Shown here: positions 297 through 37,069 of the stretch, one piece after another
Position numbering within the stretch: position 1 is the first letter of the stretch
How the letters are laid out: every line of letters starts with the position of its first letter
DNA from: a virus
Strand: one strand, 5' to 3'
IMG/VR virus record: IMGVR_UViG_3300023500_000013
Location: 1-37,782 of that record
Length of the DNA stretch: 37,782 bases
Translations under genes and position numbers: made by a program
The notes under the pieces: generated by a model
Seen by the model: only the letters and a program-made list of their open reading frames with translations
Told to the model about the DNA's origin: nothing
Database searches by the model: none

Positions 297-2711
297 TTAA
301 ATACTAAAAACTTCGCAGATGCATGTCTTTTTAGACTTACTACCTGCCACAGCAATAGCTGAGTTGCTTACTTTAAGCCCTTTGTTTTTGATAAAAGTAG
401 CTATTATTCTGTTAATTTTCTCCACGTCTGGTACTATATCCTGTATATCTTTTTTCTTTTTTACCTTATCTGCAAACATTTGATAAGGAACCATACCTTC
501 TGCCAGCCAAGGTCCATATGTTTTGCTCTTTTTAGTATGTACACAATCCGCCCATAGTCGTTCTAAAATCTCATCTAAAGCACTGGCCTCACTACAAACA
601 ACATAAGAATGCAGAGTAAACCACTTGACATCTACAAGATAAGTCATCATATTTAAAACACTGCTTTCGAACGACGTCCCGTCAAGTGTTATTATTTCGC
701 CTTTTTCATTTTTTTGTATTATAAGATGGTCAACAGATTTATTAGTGTATAGCAACCAAAAGTAGTGGTACGCTGTTATCATTGCCACCCATTTTTCGGC
801 TATTTGAGGTATTCTCTTGATGCCTGCAAATAGCTCAGGGGATATCTTATTGTATATTTTTTTTCCTAACACCTCGATATCCCACATATTTATAGGGCTT
901 CCGGGAGTGTTACTTTTTACTTGTATGGGAGCCTTTAACGCATGTATTTGTTTAGCTAAAAATAAGATAAATTTAAAGCCTCTATCATCAAATTTAAATA
1001 CTTTATCATTAATATTACCGGATGGAACATACTTATCATTATCTCTTATGTCAAACGTCTCAAATAATCGACCGTAATAACCTGATTCTACCAAATTTAA
1101 ATTAAAAGCTTTTTTAAAAGGGTCTAACTGAGTCAATCTAAAAAAAGAAAAATTTGGATTTATTATATCCTCCATGTGTTTTTTACTGTCTGATGTAATT
1201 TTAGCGGCTGGTATTAACTGACCATTAAAACAGGCAATTTCGGCGTCTATGATGGCTTTGCCTGAATACTGATTGTTGGTATCTGCCAAAGTTCTGTAAA
1301 ATCCGGTGGATTCTGCGTTCATCACGACTCCTCCTAACGGCTTTTTATCAGTTTCGTTAAGAAAAGTGCTGTGAAAAGTTTGCAGTAAATTTGTACCACT
1401 GGTAAAAGTAGATGTAATGGGACATAAAAGCTTGCTAAGTATAGCAGACGGAGTGCTAGTATCTAGTAAGTTAACTGTTTTAAATTGTTTGTAATAGCGA
1501 TGAGTGGCTTCGATCGAGTTATCATCTTTACCTCCACCTGACAATGATCCGTTTGCATAACTGCAATTAACGCTACGGTCTCTGATTGTTCTTATCTTGG
1601 CTTGTAAAAGTGTTTCATGCAATGCCATAAACGCGGGTCCAAACATAGCTGGGACAGGATCATAAATACACTCTTTAAAATTCTTTAGTAATAAAGGCAT
1701 AGGATCGGGCAAATCGGATATAATTGACTCATCAAATGTAGGCGGCGCTTTTTTATTTTCGTCGGTGCTGTGTATTAACGCTGACAAATTAGGTGTGGCT
1801 GGTTGAGGGTTATTAACACTGTCTGCCGACATGTTAAGCGATTTATAATTACTATCCACCGCATTTAATACTTTTGCTTGGTCGCTCGTAAATATTAGTT
1901 TAGCAGTGTTTAAATCTTTATCTGGATAACAAAACGATGCCGCTATTTCAAAGGCGTCGATCGGTCTACCGGATAGCTCACCATCAGACGCATGGTGAGA
2001 ATAGCACACTTGCCAAGGGTTGAGATAACTTTGCTGAGTGGTAAGTCCATATGCCCCTGAGTCCGAGTGAGGACTTTGCCATTTATGTCCTTTATTTTTA
2101 TATCCGCAATCTTTTAGTATTTTTTCTAAGGGATATTTAACATTATATAGATGTATAACTGATATTTTACCGTTGCTGTAAAGTGGTACTTTGCCGAGGT
2201 TACCGGTGGCCTTTATCTCTTTGGACTTGTGAGCAAGACACTGCATCCAGTAAGCTGCTATTTCGGGTGGTAATACTTTAATTTCAGCCGAGCTTCCGGC
2301 GACGTGTTTGTATTTACCACCGTCTGGATGCTCCGAATTACACCATACATCATATCTATTTCCACATCTTAACTCTAATATTGGTTTTTTTGTGCTTACT
2401 GGTAAAGATATGTATTCTAAGTCTATGTCCGATGGGAGATAGCAAATTACTTTTAATCTGTTTGCTTTGGGGCTTACTATTTGATATTGATCTTTGATCA
2501 AATCAATTAAATCTATTTGAGACAATCTAAATAATGATATACATTTTTTTAAATCATCAAAATCTAAGGCTACTGTGCTTGATAAGGAGTGTACTAACGC
2601 ACAACCTGTGTTACCTCTTAATTTTAGTGCTTCCTCTTTTGTAAATTTTTGGTTTGGCCAGTTATCTACCATAGCCTTTTTGCCTTGTACAGGCGTAAAA
2701 AATAAATCCAT
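297..2711 (-). CDS. Primase-polymerase with P-loop (DUF3987-like) helicase domain
   Basis: This 804-residue protein probably primes and unwinds DNA at the phage origin. The N-terminal part looks like an archaeo-eukaryotic primase (Prim-Pol) domain: a DxD pair at D50/D52 in ALDFDD and a conserved EHPDGGKY block with H128. A Cys/His-rich linker follows (about 200-245). The C-terminal half resembles DUF3987-type P-loop proteins, with a Walker A-like GSLSGGGKDD at 388-397. It is the only replication gene read leftward, and it is adjacent to the iteron-like end. Its start is ATG at 2711 with a weak AGAGA upstream; its promoter lies in the divergent region at 2815-2844. Domain assignment is by motif only, and helicase activity is inferred from the family. 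Confidence 0.72.
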   Translation of the reverse strand: MDLFFTPVQGKKAMVDNWPNQKFTKEEALKLRGNTGCALVHSLSSTVALDFDDLKKCISLFRLSQIDLIDLIKDQYQIVSPKANRLKVICYLPSDIDLEYISLPVSTKKPILELRCGNRYDVWCNSEHPDGGKYKHVAGSSAEIKVLPPEIAAYWMQCLAHKSKEIKATGNLGKVPLYSNGKISVIHLYNVKYPLEKILKDCGYKNKGHKWQSPHSDSGAYGLTTQQSYLNPWQVCYSHHASDGELSGRPIDAFEIAASFCYPDKDLNTAKLIFTSDQAKVLNAVDSNYKSLNMSADSVNNPQPATPNLSALIHSTDENKKAPPTFDESIISDLPDPMPLLLKNFKECIYDPVPAMFGPAFMALHETLLQAKIRTIRDRSVNCSYANGSLSGGGKDDNSIEATHRYYKQFKTVNLLDTSTPSAILSKLLCPITSTFTSGTNLLQTFHSTFLNETDKKPLGGVVMNAESTGFYRTLADTNNQYSGKAIIDAEIACFNGQLIPAAKITSDSKKHMEDIINPNFSFFRLTQLDPFKKAFNLNLVESGYYGRLFETFDIRDNDKYVPSGNINDKVFKFDDRGFKFILFLAKQIHALKAPIQVKSNTPGSPINMWDIEVLGKKIYNKISPELFAGIKRIPQIAEKWVAMITAYHYFWLLYTNKSVDHLIIQKNEKGEIITLDGTSFESSVLNMMTYLVDVKWFTLHSYVVCSEASALDEILERLWADCVHTKKSKTYGPWLAEGMVPYQMFADKVKKKKDIQDIVPDVEKINRIIATFIKNKGLKVSNSAIAVAGSKSKKTCICEVFSI

Positions 2712-2920: not shown

Positions 2921-3184
2921 ATGACTAACTCAATTACAATAGATGATATTTTGTCAGCAAGACTTAAAACATATGGCTCTTTTGACGACCACTCGTCTAT
3001 ATCGCAAGGTATAAAACAGGTTATGTTTAATACTGACAAATGGCAAGACTTACCGGATGATCAAAAAGAGGCACTTGAAATGATAGCTCATAAAATAGCC
3101 AGAATTTTAAACGGTGATAGTAATTACAAGGACTCATGGACAGATATTATAGGTTACACCACATTGATCGAAAAAAAACTTTAA
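2921..3184 (+). CDS. Small early protein, DUF6378-like
   Basis: This 87-residue protein is the first gene of the rightward block. The C-terminal part has the pattern EALEMIAHKIARIL, a GD-turn, then DSWTDIIGY, which is typical of a widespread short phage family that I recall as DUF6378. Its function is unknown. The helical, acidic pattern resembles pieces of all-alpha NTP pyrophosphohydrolases, but the full catalytic motif is not visible. The start has AAGG seven bases upstream. It is expressed from the palindrome-controlled promoter, and a second promoter begins right at its stop codon, so it may form a short transcript of its own. Confidence 0.6.
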   Translation: MTNSITIDDILSARLKTYGSFDDHSSISQGIKQVMFNTDKWQDLPDDQKEALEMIAHKIARILNGDSNYKDSWTDIIGYTTLIEKKL

Positions 3185-3860: not shown

Positions 3861-4229
3861 ATGGATTATTTTATAAATTATATCAAAAAGATGTACGATT
3901 ATTACGGACTAACTCTTGATATTAAGTTTTCAAACGCAGAAAAAAAATTTAGAATATGTGCATTAAGAGAGGAAATCGGCGAATATGAGGATGCCGACAC
4001 TCCTGAAAAAGAACTTGATGCCTTGCTGGATTTGCTTATTTTTTTACTTGGTACTTTTTATCGTCAAGGATATGCTAAATATATTTTAAACGGGTTTATT
4101 GTAATTATGGACGCAAACATGAAAAAACAAGTAGGCCTAAATAAAAAAAGAAATAATTTAAAATTTGATTTGATAAAACCTGAGGGATGGCTATCACCTG
4201 ACTTGACAAAAGTGCTTAAAAATGAATAA
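3861..4229 (+). CDS. All-alpha NTP pyrophosphohydrolase (MazG/PRA-PH-like)
   Basis: This 122-residue enzyme probably hydrolyses a (d)NTP to the monophosphate and pyrophosphate. The metal-binding pattern is visible at about 36-61: REEIGEYED, then ELDALLDLLIF, giving the ExxE...ExxD layout of the MazG/PRA-PH superfamily. The C-terminus (DANMKKQ, then KPEGWLSPDL) matches the short phage subgroup. Its stop overlaps the next gene by 8 bp, making a tight three-gene cassette with the thymidylate synthase-family enzyme and dCMP deaminase. In that context the likely substrates are dCTP or dUTP, feeding monophosphates to the neighbours. It has no ordinary ribosome-binding site; a hairpin separates AGGAG from the ATG. 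Confidence 0.75.
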   Translation: MDYFINYIKKMYDYYGLTLDIKFSNAEKKFRICALREEIGEYEDADTPEKELDALLDLLIFLLGTFYRQGYAKYILNGFIVIMDANMKKQVGLNKKRNNLKFDLIKPEGWLSPDLTKVLKNE

Positions 4230-5013
4230 TTTATCAAGATTTGAATACGACTATAAAAAGTTAGTTAAACGAGTACTGACGCAAGGCGAAAACACGCAAA
4301 CGAGAAATGTAGGTACACGTAGCTTATTTGGTGTACAATTAAAAATAGATTTATTGCGGTTAAACCACTTTCCGTTACTGACAGGCCGGCAAATTTACTA
4401 TAAAGGTGTAGCAGGTGAGATGGCAGCATTTTTAAAAGGTCCTAAATCAATCAGCGATTTTAAAAAACAAGGATGTAATTATTGGGACCAATGGTCTGAT
4501 GATAATGGTAAAATTAAAGTAGACTACGGCAATAAATGGATAAATTTTAACGGTGTCGATCAAATTAACAATTTAATCAGCAACTTAATTAAAGACCCTT
4601 TAGATCGTAGACTTTTGGTATCAGGTTTGGATCCAAGTAGCAAAAATTTAAGTTTACCTTGTTGTCATTATGCCTATCAATTTAGATTGGTTGACGGTAA
4701 AATTGATATAGTATGGGTACAGAGATCGTTAGATGTCATGATTGGATTACCGTCTGATATTATATTAGCGGCATTATTTTTGATTTTAGTATGTAATACA
4801 ACATGTTATGAGCCTGGATCAATTATAATGCAGTTTGGTGACACTCATATTTATGATAACCATGTTGACCAGGCTTATGATTATTTAAAAACTGCTACTC
4901 ATGAGCCGCCCACCTATAAATTAAGATCAATTATTAATAATTTTAATGGGGGAGACTTAAAAATACTAAACTATGTGCATGAGCCTAGTATTAATTTTAA
5001 GTTAAATGTGTAA
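4222..5013 (+). CDS. Thymidylate synthase-family enzyme, probable dCMP methylase/hydroxymethylase
   Basis: This 263-residue ThyA-fold enzyme transfers a one-carbon unit from methylene-tetrahydrofolate to carbon 5 of a pyrimidine nucleotide. Visible landmarks are DRR at 128-130, catalytic C148-H149, QRSLD at 167-171 and GDTHIYDNH at 206-214. The residue aligned with E. coli Asn177, which selects dUMP, is Asp179 (GLPSD). The Cys-to-Asp spacing (31) is the same as in E. coli ThyA (146 to 177) and T4 dCMP hydroxymethylase (148 to 179). Asp here is the dCMP-specific choice known from the T4 enzyme and from the Asn-to-Asp mutant of thymidylate synthase. The usual PCH is CCH. It overlaps both neighbours by 8 bp. 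A thymidylate synthase with relaxed specificity remains possible. Confidence 0.8.
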   Translation: MNNLSRFEYDYKKLVKRVLTQGENTQTRNVGTRSLFGVQLKIDLLRLNHFPLLTGRQIYYKGVAGEMAAFLKGPKSISDFKKQGCNYWDQWSDDNGKIKVDYGNKWINFNGVDQINNLISNLIKDPLDRRLLVSGLDPSSKNLSLPCCHYAYQFRLVDGKIDIVWVQRSLDVMIGLPSDIILAALFLILVCNTTCYEPGSIIMQFGDTHIYDNHVDQAYDYLKTATHEPPTYKLRSIINNFNGGDLKILNYVHEPSINFKLNV

Positions 5014-5428
5014 TCGTCTGTCCATACATCAGTACATGCTAGCTATTACAAAAGTTGTAGCAGTTAGATCTACTTGTTTAAAAAAAAAAGTTGGGTGCGT
5101 AATAACTAACACCAACGACCGAATTATAGCCGCAGGTTATAACGGTCGTAGTGCTGGACTAAAACATTGCGAAAAAATATGTGATAGTTGTACTAATAAT
5201 ATATTGCATTCGGTTCACGCCGAGGCCAACGCGATTAGCAATTGTGAGTCTAAACAGTCAATTGTAAATATGTATTGTACTATTACACCTTGCACAAACT
5301 GCGCTAAACAAATTATAAAAACAAACTGCAAAAATTTTTATTTTGCTGATTTTTATAAATCTGATGCTGGCATCCAACTGCTTCAGTCGCATAAAATAAA
5401 AGTATACAAAATAAATTGTACACTGTAG
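5006..5428 (+). CDS. Deoxycytidylate deaminase (dCMP deaminase family)
   Basis: This 140-residue zinc enzyme converts dCMP to dUMP. The cytidine/deoxycytidylate deaminase signature is complete: HAE at 71-73 (His ligand and catalytic Glu) and PCTNC at 95-99 (two Cys ligands). The N-terminal KKKVGCVI and GYNGR blocks and an additional Cys cluster (C55, C59, C62) are as in T4-type dCMP deaminases, where a second zinc is bound. The start overlaps the preceding gene by 8 bp. With the pyrophosphohydrolase and the ThyA-fold enzyme it forms a nucleotide-pool cassette. If the ThyA-like enzyme uses dCMP, the deaminase would compete for it or supply dUMP to the host thymidylate synthase. Confidence 0.88.
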   Translation: MCNRLSIHQYMLAITKVVAVRSTCLKKKVGCVITNTNDRIIAAGYNGRSAGLKHCEKICDSCTNNILHSVHAEANAISNCESKQSIVNMYCTITPCTNCAKQIIKTNCKNFYFADFYKSDAGIQLLQSHKIKVYKINCTL

Positions 5429-10801: not shown

Positions 10802-12736
10802 ATGATTATTTATGATTTAGAAACATTTCCGAACATTTTTACAGCCACTTATCTTGATGTAGAGGCGCGTGAAATGAAAGTAATTGAAATAAGTACCAGA
10901 ATTAACGAAATAAATAAATTAATTGACTGGCTTGGTATGTTGTATACAGATAACAAAACAATGGTTGGATTTAATAACCTCGGTTTTGATTATCCGATTA
11001 TACATCACATCATGAATAATTACGATAACTTAACTGTTGATGACATATACAGCGTGGCACAAGGATTAATAAATACACCTTGGGATTTAAGGCATACAAA
11101 CATGGTACGAAAACCACTAATCAAACAACTAGACCTGATGAAGGTACACCATTTTGACAATGTCACACGTTCAACATCTTTAAAAATGTTGGAAATAAAT
11201 ATGCAAATGTCAAATGTTGAAGACTTACCTTTTAAACCAGGTACAGTGCTAACAGATGCGCAAATGGACACACTCATTGAATATAATAAGCATGATGTAT
11301 TATCTACTTTTAATTTTTACAAAAAATCAAAAGAACAAATCCAGTTAAGGTATGATTTATCAGAGATATATGGCGTCGATATGTTAAATCATTCTGATGC
11401 TAAAATTGGTTCGCAGATATTTATAAAATCGTTAGAAGAAGTAGGGGTGAGATGTTTTGAGTATATTAACGGCAAACGACAAGCCATACAAACTGTAAGA
11501 AAGGATGTATCTTTAGTGGATTGTATAGTACCTTACATCAAATTTGAAAATTATGAGTTTAAAAGGATTTTAAAAATATTTGAAAATAAAATAATTAGCG
11601 ATACCAAATGTGTATTTAAAGATTTAAAATGTATTGTTAACAAGGTTGAATATATATTTGGTGTTGGAGGTTTACACGCGTCAGTAAATAATAAATCTAT
11701 ATTAACTACCAATAAACGGTCAATAGTGGATGTGGATGTAAAAAGTTATTACCCTAATCTGGCTATAAAAAATCAAATGTATCCTGCTCATTTAAGCGAG
11801 CAGTTTTGTCAAATATATGAAAAGTTATACATTGAAAGAAATAAACACCCTAAATCATCTGGGCTGAACGCTGCTTTAAAGATTGCATTAAATGGTATTT
11901 TTGGCAATAGTGGTAATAAGTATTCTCCTTTTTACGACATAAAATACTTATTAACTATAACAACAATTGGTCAATTATCATTATTGATGCTTGTAGATAT
12001 GTTGTTAAAAATACCAACTATTGAGATTATACAGTGTAATACAGATGGTATAACTTATCATGTTGACAACGAATTTATTGATCTTTGTCAGCAAGAGTGC
12101 GATAAATGGCAAAATATCACCAAACTAGAATTAGAAACAGTTAATTATTCCAGGGTTTGGGTAAGGGACGTTAATAATTATATTGCTGAGTATGATGACG
12201 GAAGTTTGAAAAGAAAAGGGGTTTTTTGTTATGGGGATGAAATCGGGTGGAGCCAAAATCACTCGATGCAGGTTGTAGCCAAGGCCTTGACAGCTTACTT
12301 TGTGAGAGGCCAGTCCGTTCGGTCATTTGTGGAATCTCATGATGATTTATATGATTTTATGATCGCGCTGAAGGTGCCTAAAACAGCAAGATTAATGTGG
12401 TCAGGTGTCCGCTTGCCCTCCACCTTACGGTATATTGTATCAGATGATGGATGTCAGCTGACCAAGATAATGCCAGCAAAGGGCAAAATAGGCGACTATA
12501 AGCGAGCAAATAGTTTGGATAATGATTACTATGACTACATAAAAAAACAAGTAGGATCTAAATGGGACGCAAGGATTAATACTAAAAATAGGTCGAAGTA
12601 CGAGAATAGGACAATGTCAATTAATGCTGGATATGATATTATACCTTGTATGCACATTGATGATTTAGATGGTGCCGATATTAACTACCAATTTTACATA
12701 GACCAAGCAAATAAAATAATTGATAAATTTAATTAA
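10802..12736 (+). CDS. Family B-type DNA polymerase with 3'-5' exonuclease
   Basis: This 644-residue replicative polymerase carries exonuclease motifs DLE (5-7, Exo I), NNLGFD (58-63, Exo II) and YNKHD (161-165, Exo III). Polymerase motifs follow: A as DVKSYYPNL (312-320), B as KIALNGIFG (360-368) and C as NTDG (413-416). In motif C the first Asp of the usual DTD is Asn, while the essential second Asp is kept. It is shorter than T4-type enzymes and has no obvious thumb extension or terminal-protein region that I can recognise. A short-leader promoter lies just upstream, and a repeated promoter starts at its stop codon. Confidence 0.85.
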   Translation: MIIYDLETFPNIFTATYLDVEAREMKVIEISTRINEINKLIDWLGMLYTDNKTMVGFNNLGFDYPIIHHIMNNYDNLTVDDIYSVAQGLINTPWDLRHTNMVRKPLIKQLDLMKVHHFDNVTRSTSLKMLEINMQMSNVEDLPFKPGTVLTDAQMDTLIEYNKHDVLSTFNFYKKSKEQIQLRYDLSEIYGVDMLNHSDAKIGSQIFIKSLEEVGVRCFEYINGKRQAIQTVRKDVSLVDCIVPYIKFENYEFKRILKIFENKIISDTKCVFKDLKCIVNKVEYIFGVGGLHASVNNKSILTTNKRSIVDVDVKSYYPNLAIKNQMYPAHLSEQFCQIYEKLYIERNKHPKSSGLNAALKIALNGIFGNSGNKYSPFYDIKYLLTITTIGQLSLLMLVDMLLKIPTIEIIQCNTDGITYHVDNEFIDLCQQECDKWQNITKLELETVNYSRVWVRDVNNYIAEYDDGSLKRKGVFCYGDEIGWSQNHSMQVVAKALTAYFVRGQSVRSFVESHDDLYDFMIALKVPKTARLMWSGVRLPSTLRYIVSDDGCQLTKIMPAKGKIGDYKRANSLDNDYYDYIKKQVGSKWDARINTKNRSKYENRTMSINAGYDIIPCMHIDDLDGADINYQFYIDQANKIIDKFN

Positions 12737-13356: not shown

Positions 13357-14397
13357 ATGACAAATCTATATGCAAGAGATGCAAAAAATAATATTAGGGT
13401 GTGGGGTATTGAGCCTTATGGTACTTATGGTTTAGTCACAAGTAGTGGTATTTTAGGTGGAGCTATTACAAACAAGACAGTTAAAGTAACACCTAAAGCT
13501 AACAGAACACAACGTGAACAAGTACGGCTAGAAATAGAGTCCAGAATAAAAATAAAAATAGATGCTGGTTTTGTCAAATCTATCGAAGAGGCTAAAACAA
13601 ATGAAAGGACTAATGCTTTAGGTTTTAAAAGACCAATGTTGGCCATGGCTAAAGTTTTTGACTTTGACTCTGTTAATAGTCATGTACAGATTAAGTATGA
13701 CGGGCTTAGATGCTTGATAACAAATATAGATGGTAAGCTATACGCTTATTCAAAAACTGGTAAAATGTTTGATTGTATCGACCATATACTTGATGGTATA
13801 AACATACCCGAGGGGGTGACAATTGACGGCGAATTATACAGCCATAAGACACCGTTACAGACTATAAATAGCTGGGTAAAAAGAAAACAAAAAGATACAA
13901 AAAAGCTGGACTACAGGTGCTATGATATTGTAAATGATCACTGTTTTGAGGATCGAATAATTCAATTGCAAAAATATAACCTAGGAAAATTTGCAAGAGT
14001 AGTTAAGACCTGGAGGATGGCAGAAATTGATATTACTAGACTATTTAACGAGGTCAGAGAAGATGGTTATGAGGGACTAATTATTAGACAGCCTAATTTT
14101 GGCTACCAGAGCGGCAAAAGAAATAAAGCTATGATTAAAGTCAAGCAGTTTTTAGATGGTGAATTTATCATTTGTGGTATAAATGCAACAAAGGAGGGGT
14201 TTGCGAGGTTACTTTTAAAAACTGCTACAGGGAGATCATTTGTAGTTCTGGCGCCAGGAACCCATGCTGAAAAAAGGGAAATATTAAACAATGCGAAAGA
14301 TTATATTGGGACATTTATAAATATAACATATGCCCATACGTCAATAGATGGTATACCTCAACAACCGATAGCGAGGTATTTTCGTGATTTTGAATAA
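13357..14397 (+). CDS. ATP-dependent DNA ligase
   Basis: This 346-residue ligase seals nicks by an AMP-lysine intermediate. The nucleophile motif I is KYDGLR, with K113. Motifs IV and V are seen as EGLIIR and IKVKQF, and DGELY marks motif III. The N-terminal 85 residues precede the adenylation domain; NIRVWGIEPYG looks like a WGR-type region known from some phage ligases. The C-terminal part (FARLLLKTATGRSFVVLAP onward) is a short OB-fold. It serves replication alongside the phage polymerase. The GTG start of the next gene lies 14 bp inside its 3' end. Confidence 0.88.
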   Translation: MTNLYARDAKNNIRVWGIEPYGTYGLVTSSGILGGAITNKTVKVTPKANRTQREQVRLEIESRIKIKIDAGFVKSIEEAKTNERTNALGFKRPMLAMAKVFDFDSVNSHVQIKYDGLRCLITNIDGKLYAYSKTGKMFDCIDHILDGINIPEGVTIDGELYSHKTPLQTINSWVKRKQKDTKKLDYRCYDIVNDHCFEDRIIQLQKYNLGKFARVVKTWRMAEIDITRLFNEVREDGYEGLIIRQPNFGYQSGKRNKAMIKVKQFLDGEFIICGINATKEGFARLLLKTATGRSFVVLAPGTHAEKREILNNAKDYIGTFINITYAHTSIDGIPQQPIARYFRDFE

Positions 14398-27989: not shown

Positions 27990-28769
27990 TCACCTTATAA
28001 ATTTGGCCGAAAATCTATGGTCTTTTGGGTTACCCACTGTAGCTGTCCCAAAAAATGAATTAGTGGCGGCACCAGCCCCGTAACCTTTTAAAACAAGTGA
28101 ATCTCCTTGAATTAGAGATATTTCAGTACTGCCGTAAGAAATATTAGATGATCTTGCGTTACCTGTAAGATGCAGATCCACGTGGTCAGTAACATTTATA
28201 TATAATCTTGTAATAAGTACTGTAGCTGTTGCAATATTAAAAAAAGAAATAGCCGCTCCTATCTCCCATAACCCTGTTTTAGGTACGGTAAAAGTACCCG
28301 TAAGTAAATCAAAATGGTTGCCTTCGTTATGGTTAGCAATCTGCCAATTAATTACAGGCACAAATGTAGCTGGAGGCAGTAATATATTAGATCCAGTAGA
28401 TCCGTAAACGCTAAAACCTAAATTAATCTGATTATTAGATTCATTAGCGGATTCGGCCGACCATTCGACTTGTAAAACAACATTGCCAACAGCGGCACTA
28501 AAATCAACAGCTGCATCAGAGTTACTAGAGCTGTGTATAGTTGTTCGGGCTACTGTTTTTGCAGTGGCATCAAATGCTCCTTCACCTTGCTCCCACAGCC
28601 CAGCACCATCTGACACACTGTACGGGACAATATCCCCGCCTGTATACGCACTATCCACATTTCTGAAACCATCAGCACCAATGGCAGCAACGTTCAAAGC
28701 GAAAGATGTTGCGGCGTTGGGCTTGTTGGTTAACGTTTCTCGGACAAACGATTTATGACTTGCTGTCAT
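27990..28769 (-). CDS. Fibre-like protein with C1q/TNF-like C-terminal domain
   Basis: This 259-residue protein opens with a pattern common in short phage fibre and decoration proteins: VRET, then GLWEQGEGAFD and SSSNSDAAVDFSA. The C-terminal half (FTVPKTGLWEIGAAISFFN, then ISLIQGDSLVLKGYG) resembles C1q/TNF-like jelly-roll domains, which trimerise. It may be a receptor-binding fibre or a head-surface fibre. It is read just before its likely chaperone and lies downstream of the capsid genes rather than the tail-tip genes. Confidence 0.62.
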   Translation of the reverse strand: MTASHKSFVRETLTNKPNAATSFALNVAAIGADGFRNVDSAYTGGDIVPYSVSDGAGLWEQGEGAFDATAKTVARTTIHSSSNSDAAVDFSAAVGNVVLQVEWSAESANESNNQINLGFSVYGSTGSNILLPPATFVPVINWQIANHNEGNHFDLLTGTFTVPKTGLWEIGAAISFFNIATATVLITRLYINVTDHVDLHLTGNARSSNISYGSTEISLIQGDSLVLKGYGAGAATNSFFGTATVGNPKDHRFSAKFIR

Positions 28770-36706: not shown

Positions 36707-37069
36707 TTAGATTATTTGATTCATTCTTGCATAATCTTGGATCCACTGTATAAACTTTTCTTTGTTTAGCTCAATTTTATCCAAACCAACAATAAATTGC
36801 CAAGATTGTCGATTTTGTCGATAAGCAAGTACAGGTATATTATCACATTCAGCCGCCTGTTGTAGTGTTTGTCTCCACCATGCAGGTAAGCATAGCTTTT
36901 CTTGCCTTTTAACTTCAATGCTCAAACCATCAATGCCATCTAGATCATGCCCTCCACTTCTGGTTTGGTCTAAATTTCTTAACATTTTAACTCCTGTCGC
37001 ATAGTAAATTATATCCGCTAATTCGCGTTCGGCATTTGCCCCTTTATTTCTGCTTGACCTGCCTGCCAT
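36707..37069 (-). CDS. PD-(D/E)XK nuclease, Holliday-junction-resolvase-like
   Basis: This 120-residue protein begins RNKGANAERELADII, with GGHDLDGIDGLSIEVKRQE in the middle: Glu about 14, Asp in GHDLDGID and ExK (EVK) give the PD-(D/E)XK nuclease core as in Hjc-type resolvases. A WWRQTLQQAAE helix follows. It may resolve branched DNA before packaging. AGGAT lies about seven bases before the start. It is placed just before terminase, a common spot for such nucleases. Confidence 0.72.
   Translation of the reverse strand: MAGRSSRNKGANAERELADIIYYATGVKMLRNLDQTRSGGHDLDGIDGLSIEVKRQEKLCLPAWWRQTLQQAAECDNIPVLAYRQNRQSWQFIVGLDKIELNKEKFIQWIQDYARMNQII

Follow-up and report, generated by a model that had tools for sequence, protein, structure and literature searches.

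A phage clade of ThyA-fold enzymes with a predicted dCMP-type active site

The window, by which we mean the whole 37,782-nt stretch of viral DNA that was analysed, encodes a relative of thymidylate synthase (ThyA) whose active site appears to suit cytosine instead of uracil, and on the evidence of its residues dCMP is very probably the substrate. Its family is confined to phages and has been overlooked; we call it the CCH clade, as the usual PCH motif around the catalytic Cys is replaced by CCH. This reading draws on features found in the sequences themselves: an Asp at the base-selecting position, an intact catalytic set, a well-supported clade, a conserved gene cassette and weak avoidance of C/G-containing palindromes. 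We infer that the cytosine of the virion DNA is probably modified and, with somewhat less assurance, that the product of the enzyme is 5-methyl-dCMP rather than 5-hydroxymethyl-dCMP. The complete scheme, in which a dCMP 5-methylase provides a modified dCMP that replaces cytosine in virion DNA and blocks restriction, would stand at about an even chance.

The synthase homologue and its active site

The features of the window relevant to this analysis are the following.

2921..3184, plus strand: DUF6378 protein, a recurrent neighbour of CCH-clade synthases (PF19905, E 1e-6)
3861..4229, plus strand: DR2231/MazG-like dNTP pyrophosphohydrolase with intact EExxE...DxxxD motif (phrog_671; profile matches 3nl9 and DR2231)
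4222..5013, plus strand: ThyA-fold enzyme of the CCH clade, predicted dCMP C5-methylase or hydroxymethylase (Pfam, AlphaFold2, residues)
4522..4524, plus strand: codon of Asp101, which is fixed throughout the clade, aligns with E. coli V93 and matches T4 gp42 Ser94 in space (alignment; PMC6400193)
4660..4665, plus strand: codons TGT TGT of the clade-specific Cys147 (P145 in E. coli) and the catalytic Cys148 (E. coli C146), from the alignment
4756..4758, plus strand: codon GAT of Asp179, the base-selecting residue (E. coli N177, T4 gp42 D179), from the alignment
5006..5428, plus strand: dCMP deaminase with intact HAE and PCxxC motifs (PF00383, E 1.7e-17; 2hvv, T4 1vq2)
13357..14397, plus strand: ATP-dependent DNA ligase in the same-strand replication module (PF01068, E 1.4e-13)

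The open reading frame at 4222-5013 encodes a full-length ThyA-fold protein of 263 aa, which matched the Pfam Thymidylat_synt family (PF00303) with an E-value of 3.4e-62 and passed the NCBIfam thymidylate synthase model TIGR03284, and its closest solved structures were all thymidylate synthases. The best fold matches of its AlphaFold2 model (mean pLDDT 90.8, pTM 0.90) were ThyA chains (Z 34, rmsd 1.4 Å over 254 residues), and the fold alignment took in the C-terminal tail, which is of ThyA length. An earlier note on this DNA had proposed a dCMP-specific Asp in this protein, to be checked by structure prediction and alignment to ThyA and T4 gp42; both were carried out, and returned a ThyA fold with Asp, not Asn, at the selecting position.

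When the protein was aligned with E. coli ThyA, whose sequence was verified with 1aob, and with T4 gp42 (taken from AF158101), Asp179 fell opposite E. coli N177 and T4 D179, and Cys148 opposite E. coli C146 and T4 C148, with the same spacing of 31 residues in all three enzymes, exactly as the note had stated; its CCH motif was also correct, with E. coli P145 corresponding to Cys147. The positions E58, W80, Y94, R126/R127, R166, S167, D169, H207 and Y209 (E. coli numbering) are intact, and in the numbering of the window enzyme D179, C148, E66, Y102, R168, H209 and Y211 are all in place. The protein thus combines the fold and catalytic set of the ThyA superfamily (Cys146, Glu58, Tyr94, Arg166, Asp169, His207 and Tyr209) with the Asp at 177 that marks dCMP-type homologues, in place of the Asn177 of canonical dUMP synthases. 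Mutation of this Asn to Asp turns ThyA into a dCMP methylase (PMC8670742).

The clade, its cassette and its genomic footprint

Scans of a phage collection and of IMG/VR, the latter represented by the best 80 of 219 stretches encoding a relative, gave a CCH clade of 105 ORFs with 78 distinct core sequences. Arg48, Asp93, Cys145 and His147 (E. coli numbering) were found in 105/105 ORFs and Asp177 in 104/105, and hence three clade-wide active-site changes (K48R, V93D and P145C) accompany the Asp. At positions 48, 93, 145, 147 and 177, 80 canonical phage synthases carried K (80), V or I (75), P (76), H (80) and N (79), and with a single Asp among these 80 the presence of Asp in the clade is not due to chance. 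The frequency of Cys145 is partly selected for, since the search patterns contained the CCH or GCNYW motifs; Asp177, Asp93 and Arg48 lay outside these patterns. In the tree the clade had a support of 99/99 and was placed apart from the canonical enzymes, from the Xp12-related enzymes (AXL1, DoCa10, RDJL phi1 and AXL3) and from T4 gp42. Independent origins of Asp177 are not claimed, as the tree does not settle whether the Asp-bearing lineages are one group.

In 84,980 cellular genomes the enzyme occurred on four contigs only, all metagenome-assembled and 26-44 kb in length, and its gene is thus a viral one, not that of a housekeeping synthase. Among cultured phages it is carried by the Edwardsiella phages KF-1, IW-1, ETP-1 and ZHX, Vibrio phage VPMS1, Pseudoalteromonas phage PH1, Dickeya phage Amaethon and Pelagibacter phage Kolga. 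The sole clade member with Asn at 177 (L041:9992-10807) has no recognisable cassette of pyrophosphohydrolase and deaminase genes, as would suit a return to dUMP, and is a single but fitting exception. Conversely, the td of the T4-like Escherichia phage UPEC07 (L112:295-1152), located beside a dihydrofolate reductase (DHFR) gene and otherwise canonical, has Asp at 177 (GLPFDIGSY), while T4's own td (1tis) has Asn. The UPEC07 Asp may represent a change that the enzyme tolerates, or else a natural switch to the dCMP type in a separate lineage, and its presence in an otherwise ordinary synthase means that Asp alone is not proof.

The tight cassette described in the note was confirmed, with the genes at 3861-4229, 4222-5013 and 5006-5428 overlapping by 8 bases at both the start and the end of the synthase gene. 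The upstream protein is all-alpha and its profile matches were the NTP pyrophosphohydrolase 3nl9 and the MazG-like DR2231, with Pfam PRA-PH found below the cut-off only; the downstream protein matched both PF00383 and PF14437, and its solved relatives are the dCMP deaminases 2hvv and T4 1vq2. On dereplicated contigs a pyrophosphohydrolase was located within 3 kb of the synthase in 45/59 CCH loci and 3/71 canonical loci, a comparison in which detection is favoured at CCH loci because most of the queries were drawn from loci of the CCH clade and its relatives, while a deaminase was located within 3 kb in 32/59 and 1/71 loci, respectively. At 28 loci DUF6378 was encoded no more than 4 kb from the synthase. 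In Edwardsiella phage KF-1 the deaminase (ORF-27, L018:17611-18219) also contains, as a fusion, a dGTP_diPhyd_N domain (PF18909, E 4.6e-34). DUF6378 occupies a place similar to this domain in other cassettes, in VPMS1 (L019:14726-15253) as the C-terminal end of a larger protein, and may therefore be another helper related to dNTP hydrolases.

Elsewhere the window encodes a Prim-Pol primase at its left end, read from the other strand (297-2711, minus strand), a compact DNA polymerase (10802-12736, plus strand; phrog_1252), a structural-module protein with a C1q-like domain slightly under the Pfam cut-off (27990-28769, minus strand; E 1.8e-4) and a PDDEXK_15 putative phage endonuclease adjoining the terminase (36707-37069, minus strand; E 1.1e-11). 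In its structural genes, among them an HK97-type protease, capsid and tape measure, the window resembles siphoviruses, whereas KF-1 and Amaethon, which share the cassette, are podoviruses.

Modified cytosine is expected to leave only weak selection against restriction sites, and we compared observed with expected counts of 6-bp palindromes (order-3 Markov expectation) between 59 dereplicated CCH contigs, 68 random viral contigs and 71 contigs with a canonical synthase. For C/G-containing palindromes the median observed/expected ratio was 0.934 in the CCH clade, versus 0.774 in random contigs (p 4e-9) and 0.788 in canonical-synthase contigs (p 7.5e-8), and the difference persisted after GC matching (p 4.5e-7 and 4e-6, respectively), although the related phages in these groups are not independent. 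The CCH contigs resembled the two control groups in both A/T-only palindromes (p 0.78 and 0.12), which are hardly avoided in any group, and non-palindromic 6-mers (p 0.21 and 0.79). Ratios of 0.88-0.91 were obtained for phages whose DNA is known or likely to be modified (parts of T4, AXL3 and DoCa10), and the window itself, at 0.854, is under the clade median. T7 and ICP3 were at 0.55, and a comparison with these two alone was dropped as unfair, since T7-like phages are extreme. The weak avoidance of C/G-containing palindromes fits cytosine-protected DNA, as indirect evidence from a statistic that is blind to cytosine versus guanine modification, and could alternatively reflect hosts with few restriction systems. 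The publications on CCH-clade phages (KF-1, VPMS1, PH1 and Amaethon), mostly at the level of abstracts, gave no digestion or nucleoside data, and restriction is not mentioned in PMC8472413.

Proposed pathway and alternative readings

In the pathway that we propose, Asp179 would bind dCMP instead of dUMP, Cys148 would attack C6, and the one-carbon unit of methylene-tetrahydrofolate would be passed to C5, where hydride transfer would most likely reduce the methylene group, giving 5-methyl-dCMP and dihydrofolate. The MazG-like pyrophosphohydrolase would convert dCTP (and dUTP) to the monophosphates, thus supplying dCMP and removing unmodified dCTP, and the dCMP deaminase would supply dUMP or convert 5-methyl-dCMP to dTMP. 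A host kinase would phosphorylate the modified dCMP, and cytosine in the virion DNA would then be replaced and restriction blocked. Among the points against this scheme, no nucleotide kinase was recognised in the window.

The choice between methylation and hydroxymethylation depends on comparison with enzymes of both kinds. Hydroxymethylation by T4 gp42 requires Asp145, which precedes the Cys by three residues, as well as Ser94 and Tyr96 (Park et al., PMC6400193); the D145N enzyme is dead, the tail and Trp83 of ThyA are lacking, and the water-coordinating Ser94 was equated with E. coli V93 (PMC6400193). At these signature sites the window enzyme has Leu145, Val100 and Trp91 with a full tail, versus D145, V85 and no tail in T4, and so lacks both the Asp or Glu at position -3 from the catalytic Cys and the Ser or Thr at position -2 from the catalytic Tyr that mark the T4 type (PMC6400193). 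The position of T4 Asp145 is Leu in 105/105 clade ORFs, and the window enzyme retains the tail along with the E. coli residues L143, W83 and D169.

In Xp12 5-methylcytosine replaces cytosine, and AXL1 is a relative of this phage (PMC7653180); Xp12 is represented in our comparisons by its relatives AXL1 and DoCa10, on the strength of PMC9206674. The synthases of AXL1 and DoCa10 have Asp177 with Val at 143, Xp12-related enzymes having Val or Ile at the Asp145 position, and in the window enzyme Asp177 is likewise accompanied by residues of reductive methylation, namely a hydrophobic residue at 143, Asp169 and the tail. Asp177 is also carried by the synthases of the Stenotrophomonas phages AXL1 and AXL3, whose DNA is cut almost solely by enzymes with A/T-only sites (PMC9206674, PMC7504290). 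A carbamoyltransferase (PF02543), which would imply 5-hydroxymethylcytosine, was absent from 50 CCH-clade records. DHFR (PF00186) had no match in 45/49 records searched, the window included, and matched in 4/49 (three over the cut-off), and with DHFR in so few records the expected cofactor recycling gives no help. Bacillus phage Grass was set aside as a dUMP hydroxymethylase calibrator, its product not being established.

As the T4 signature is absent and the hydride-transfer residues are kept, 5-methyl is the favoured product. The clade is outside the T4 hydroxymethylase family by the residues that define it, and in the tree it is on another branch than the Xp12-related enzymes, but it probably works like the latter. 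The T4 parallel drawn in the earlier note therefore holds for Asp179 and the cassette activities and fails for the Asp145 signature. Its suggestion of a dCMP-type enzyme and possible cytosine modification finds good support in the clade-wide Asp, the conserved cassette and the relaxed palindrome avoidance, with 5-methylcytosine now favoured over 5-hydroxymethylcytosine.

Hydroxymethylation is kept as a serious rival, since Asp101 places a carboxylate where T4 holds a water. In this alternative Asp101 would do the job of T4 Asp145 and the virion DNA would contain 5-hydroxymethylcytosine, and we regard it as a minority possibility. In its favour, Asp179 is common to T4 gp42 and MilA (PMC5175136), the cassette activities match those of T4, Asp101 and Cys147 are invariant in 105 ORFs where canonical enzymes have a hydrophobic residue and Pro, and 45/49 records have no DHFR of their own. 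Against it are the Leu at the Asp145 site throughout the clade, the retention of Trp83 and the tail, which seal the ThyA active site, and the lack of a 5-hydroxymethylcytosine-requiring carbamoyltransferase in all 50 relatives and of any recognised glycosyltransferase among the window proteins scanned. Slightly less probable again is that the Arg48/Asp93/Cys145/Asp177 site performs the last step in its own manner, with Asp101 or the Cys147-Cys148 pair yielding 5-hydroxymethyl-dCMP by a route different from that of T4, or another C5 substituent; cytosine would then be replaced in a broad range of phages in which the enzyme bears only a thymidylate synthase annotation.

The remaining two readings leave phage DNA without a modified base or the substrate unchanged, and both appear improbable. 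A dCMP methylase could serve dTMP synthesis, with 5-methyl-dCMP converted by the deaminase and the phage DNA unmodified; the deaminase gene overlaps that of the synthase and recurs beside it, and cells infected by Xp12 are known to have a 5-methyl-dCTP deaminase activity. However, a deaminase within 3 kb in only 32/59 dereplicated loci argues against this, and the relaxed palindrome avoidance and the pyrophosphohydrolase would be left unexplained. Least probable is that an ordinary synthase has kept dUMP as its methylation substrate in spite of the Asp, with the cassette supplying no more than dUMP and dTMP. The ThyA-like fold, the catalytic residues, most of which are kept, His147, the TIGR03284 match and the one ordinary-looking td with Asp would all agree with this, but published Asn-to-Asp mutants prefer dCMP (PMC8670742), the Asp is conserved along with three other active-site changes, and canonical phage synthases do not have the cassette.

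Hundreds of phage contigs carry the enzyme, mostly annotated as thymidylate synthase, including those of Edwardsiella, Vibrio, Pseudoalteromonas, Dickeya and Pelagibacter phages. If modified dCMP is made, the cytosines of these carriers are probably replaced, which bears on evasion of host defence, on cloning and on bisulfite or enzymatic sequencing. The clade would then add a small enzyme from nature for producing modified dCMP, as well as a naturally occurring Asn-to-Asp switch on which methylation can be dissected from hydroxymethylation, and existing isolates are amenable to routine methods.

Relation to known systems

In the MetaGPA study (eLife 2021, PMC8670742), phage DNA with modified cytosine was selected and the thymidylate synthase domain was most strongly associated with it, with positions 177 (Asn to Asp) and 147 as top residues; on modified contigs the synthase co-occurred with PRA-PH, dCMP deaminase and MafB19 domains, and DNA ligase domains were likewise enriched (PMC8670742). 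It is thus already published that Asp177, together with this set of genes, marks phages with modified cytosine, and the clade and its genomic footprint are the new part. The window shares Asp177, a PRA-PH-like protein, a deaminase and a DNA ligase with the MetaGPA set, but unlike that set, which is altered at 147, the CCH clade retains His147, and its 50 records are without carbamoyltransferase. Because His147 is kept, the clade is not the type that the MetaGPA data mainly describe, and its presence among the modified contigs cannot be claimed.

Canonical ThyA and its Asn-to-Asp mutants have the fold, length, tail, Leu143, Trp83, His147 and Asp169 in common with the CCH enzyme, which differs from canonical ThyA in its natural Asp177, the fixed Arg48, Asp93 and Cys145, its restriction to phages and its set cassette. 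MilA, a CMP hydroxymethylase, also has Asp at the base-selecting position (PMC5175136), but its ribose pair Lys133/Ala176 is replaced by Arg and Ser of the deoxyribose type in the window enzyme (R129/R130 and S169, E. coli R126/R127 and S167). T4 gp42 shares the Asp179/Cys148 spacing and acts beside dCTPase and dCMP deaminase activities, as in the CCH cassette, whereas the CCH enzyme is nearer to ThyA in sequence and fold, with Trp83, Leu143, His147 and the tail kept and Asp145 and Ser94 absent. The Xp12 relatives AXL1 and DoCa10 likewise have an Asp177-type homologue, hydrophobic at E. coli position 143, next to a dCMP deaminase and an NTP pyrophosphohydrolase, and DHFR adjoins the synthase gene in AXL1 and RDJL phi1. 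The CCH clade is on a separate branch from these relatives (AXL1, DLP4 and DoCa10), which have Ala at 93 and lack the CCH motif, and position 147 sets the groups apart, being Thr in T4, Pro or Thr in the Xp12 relatives and His in the CCH clade.
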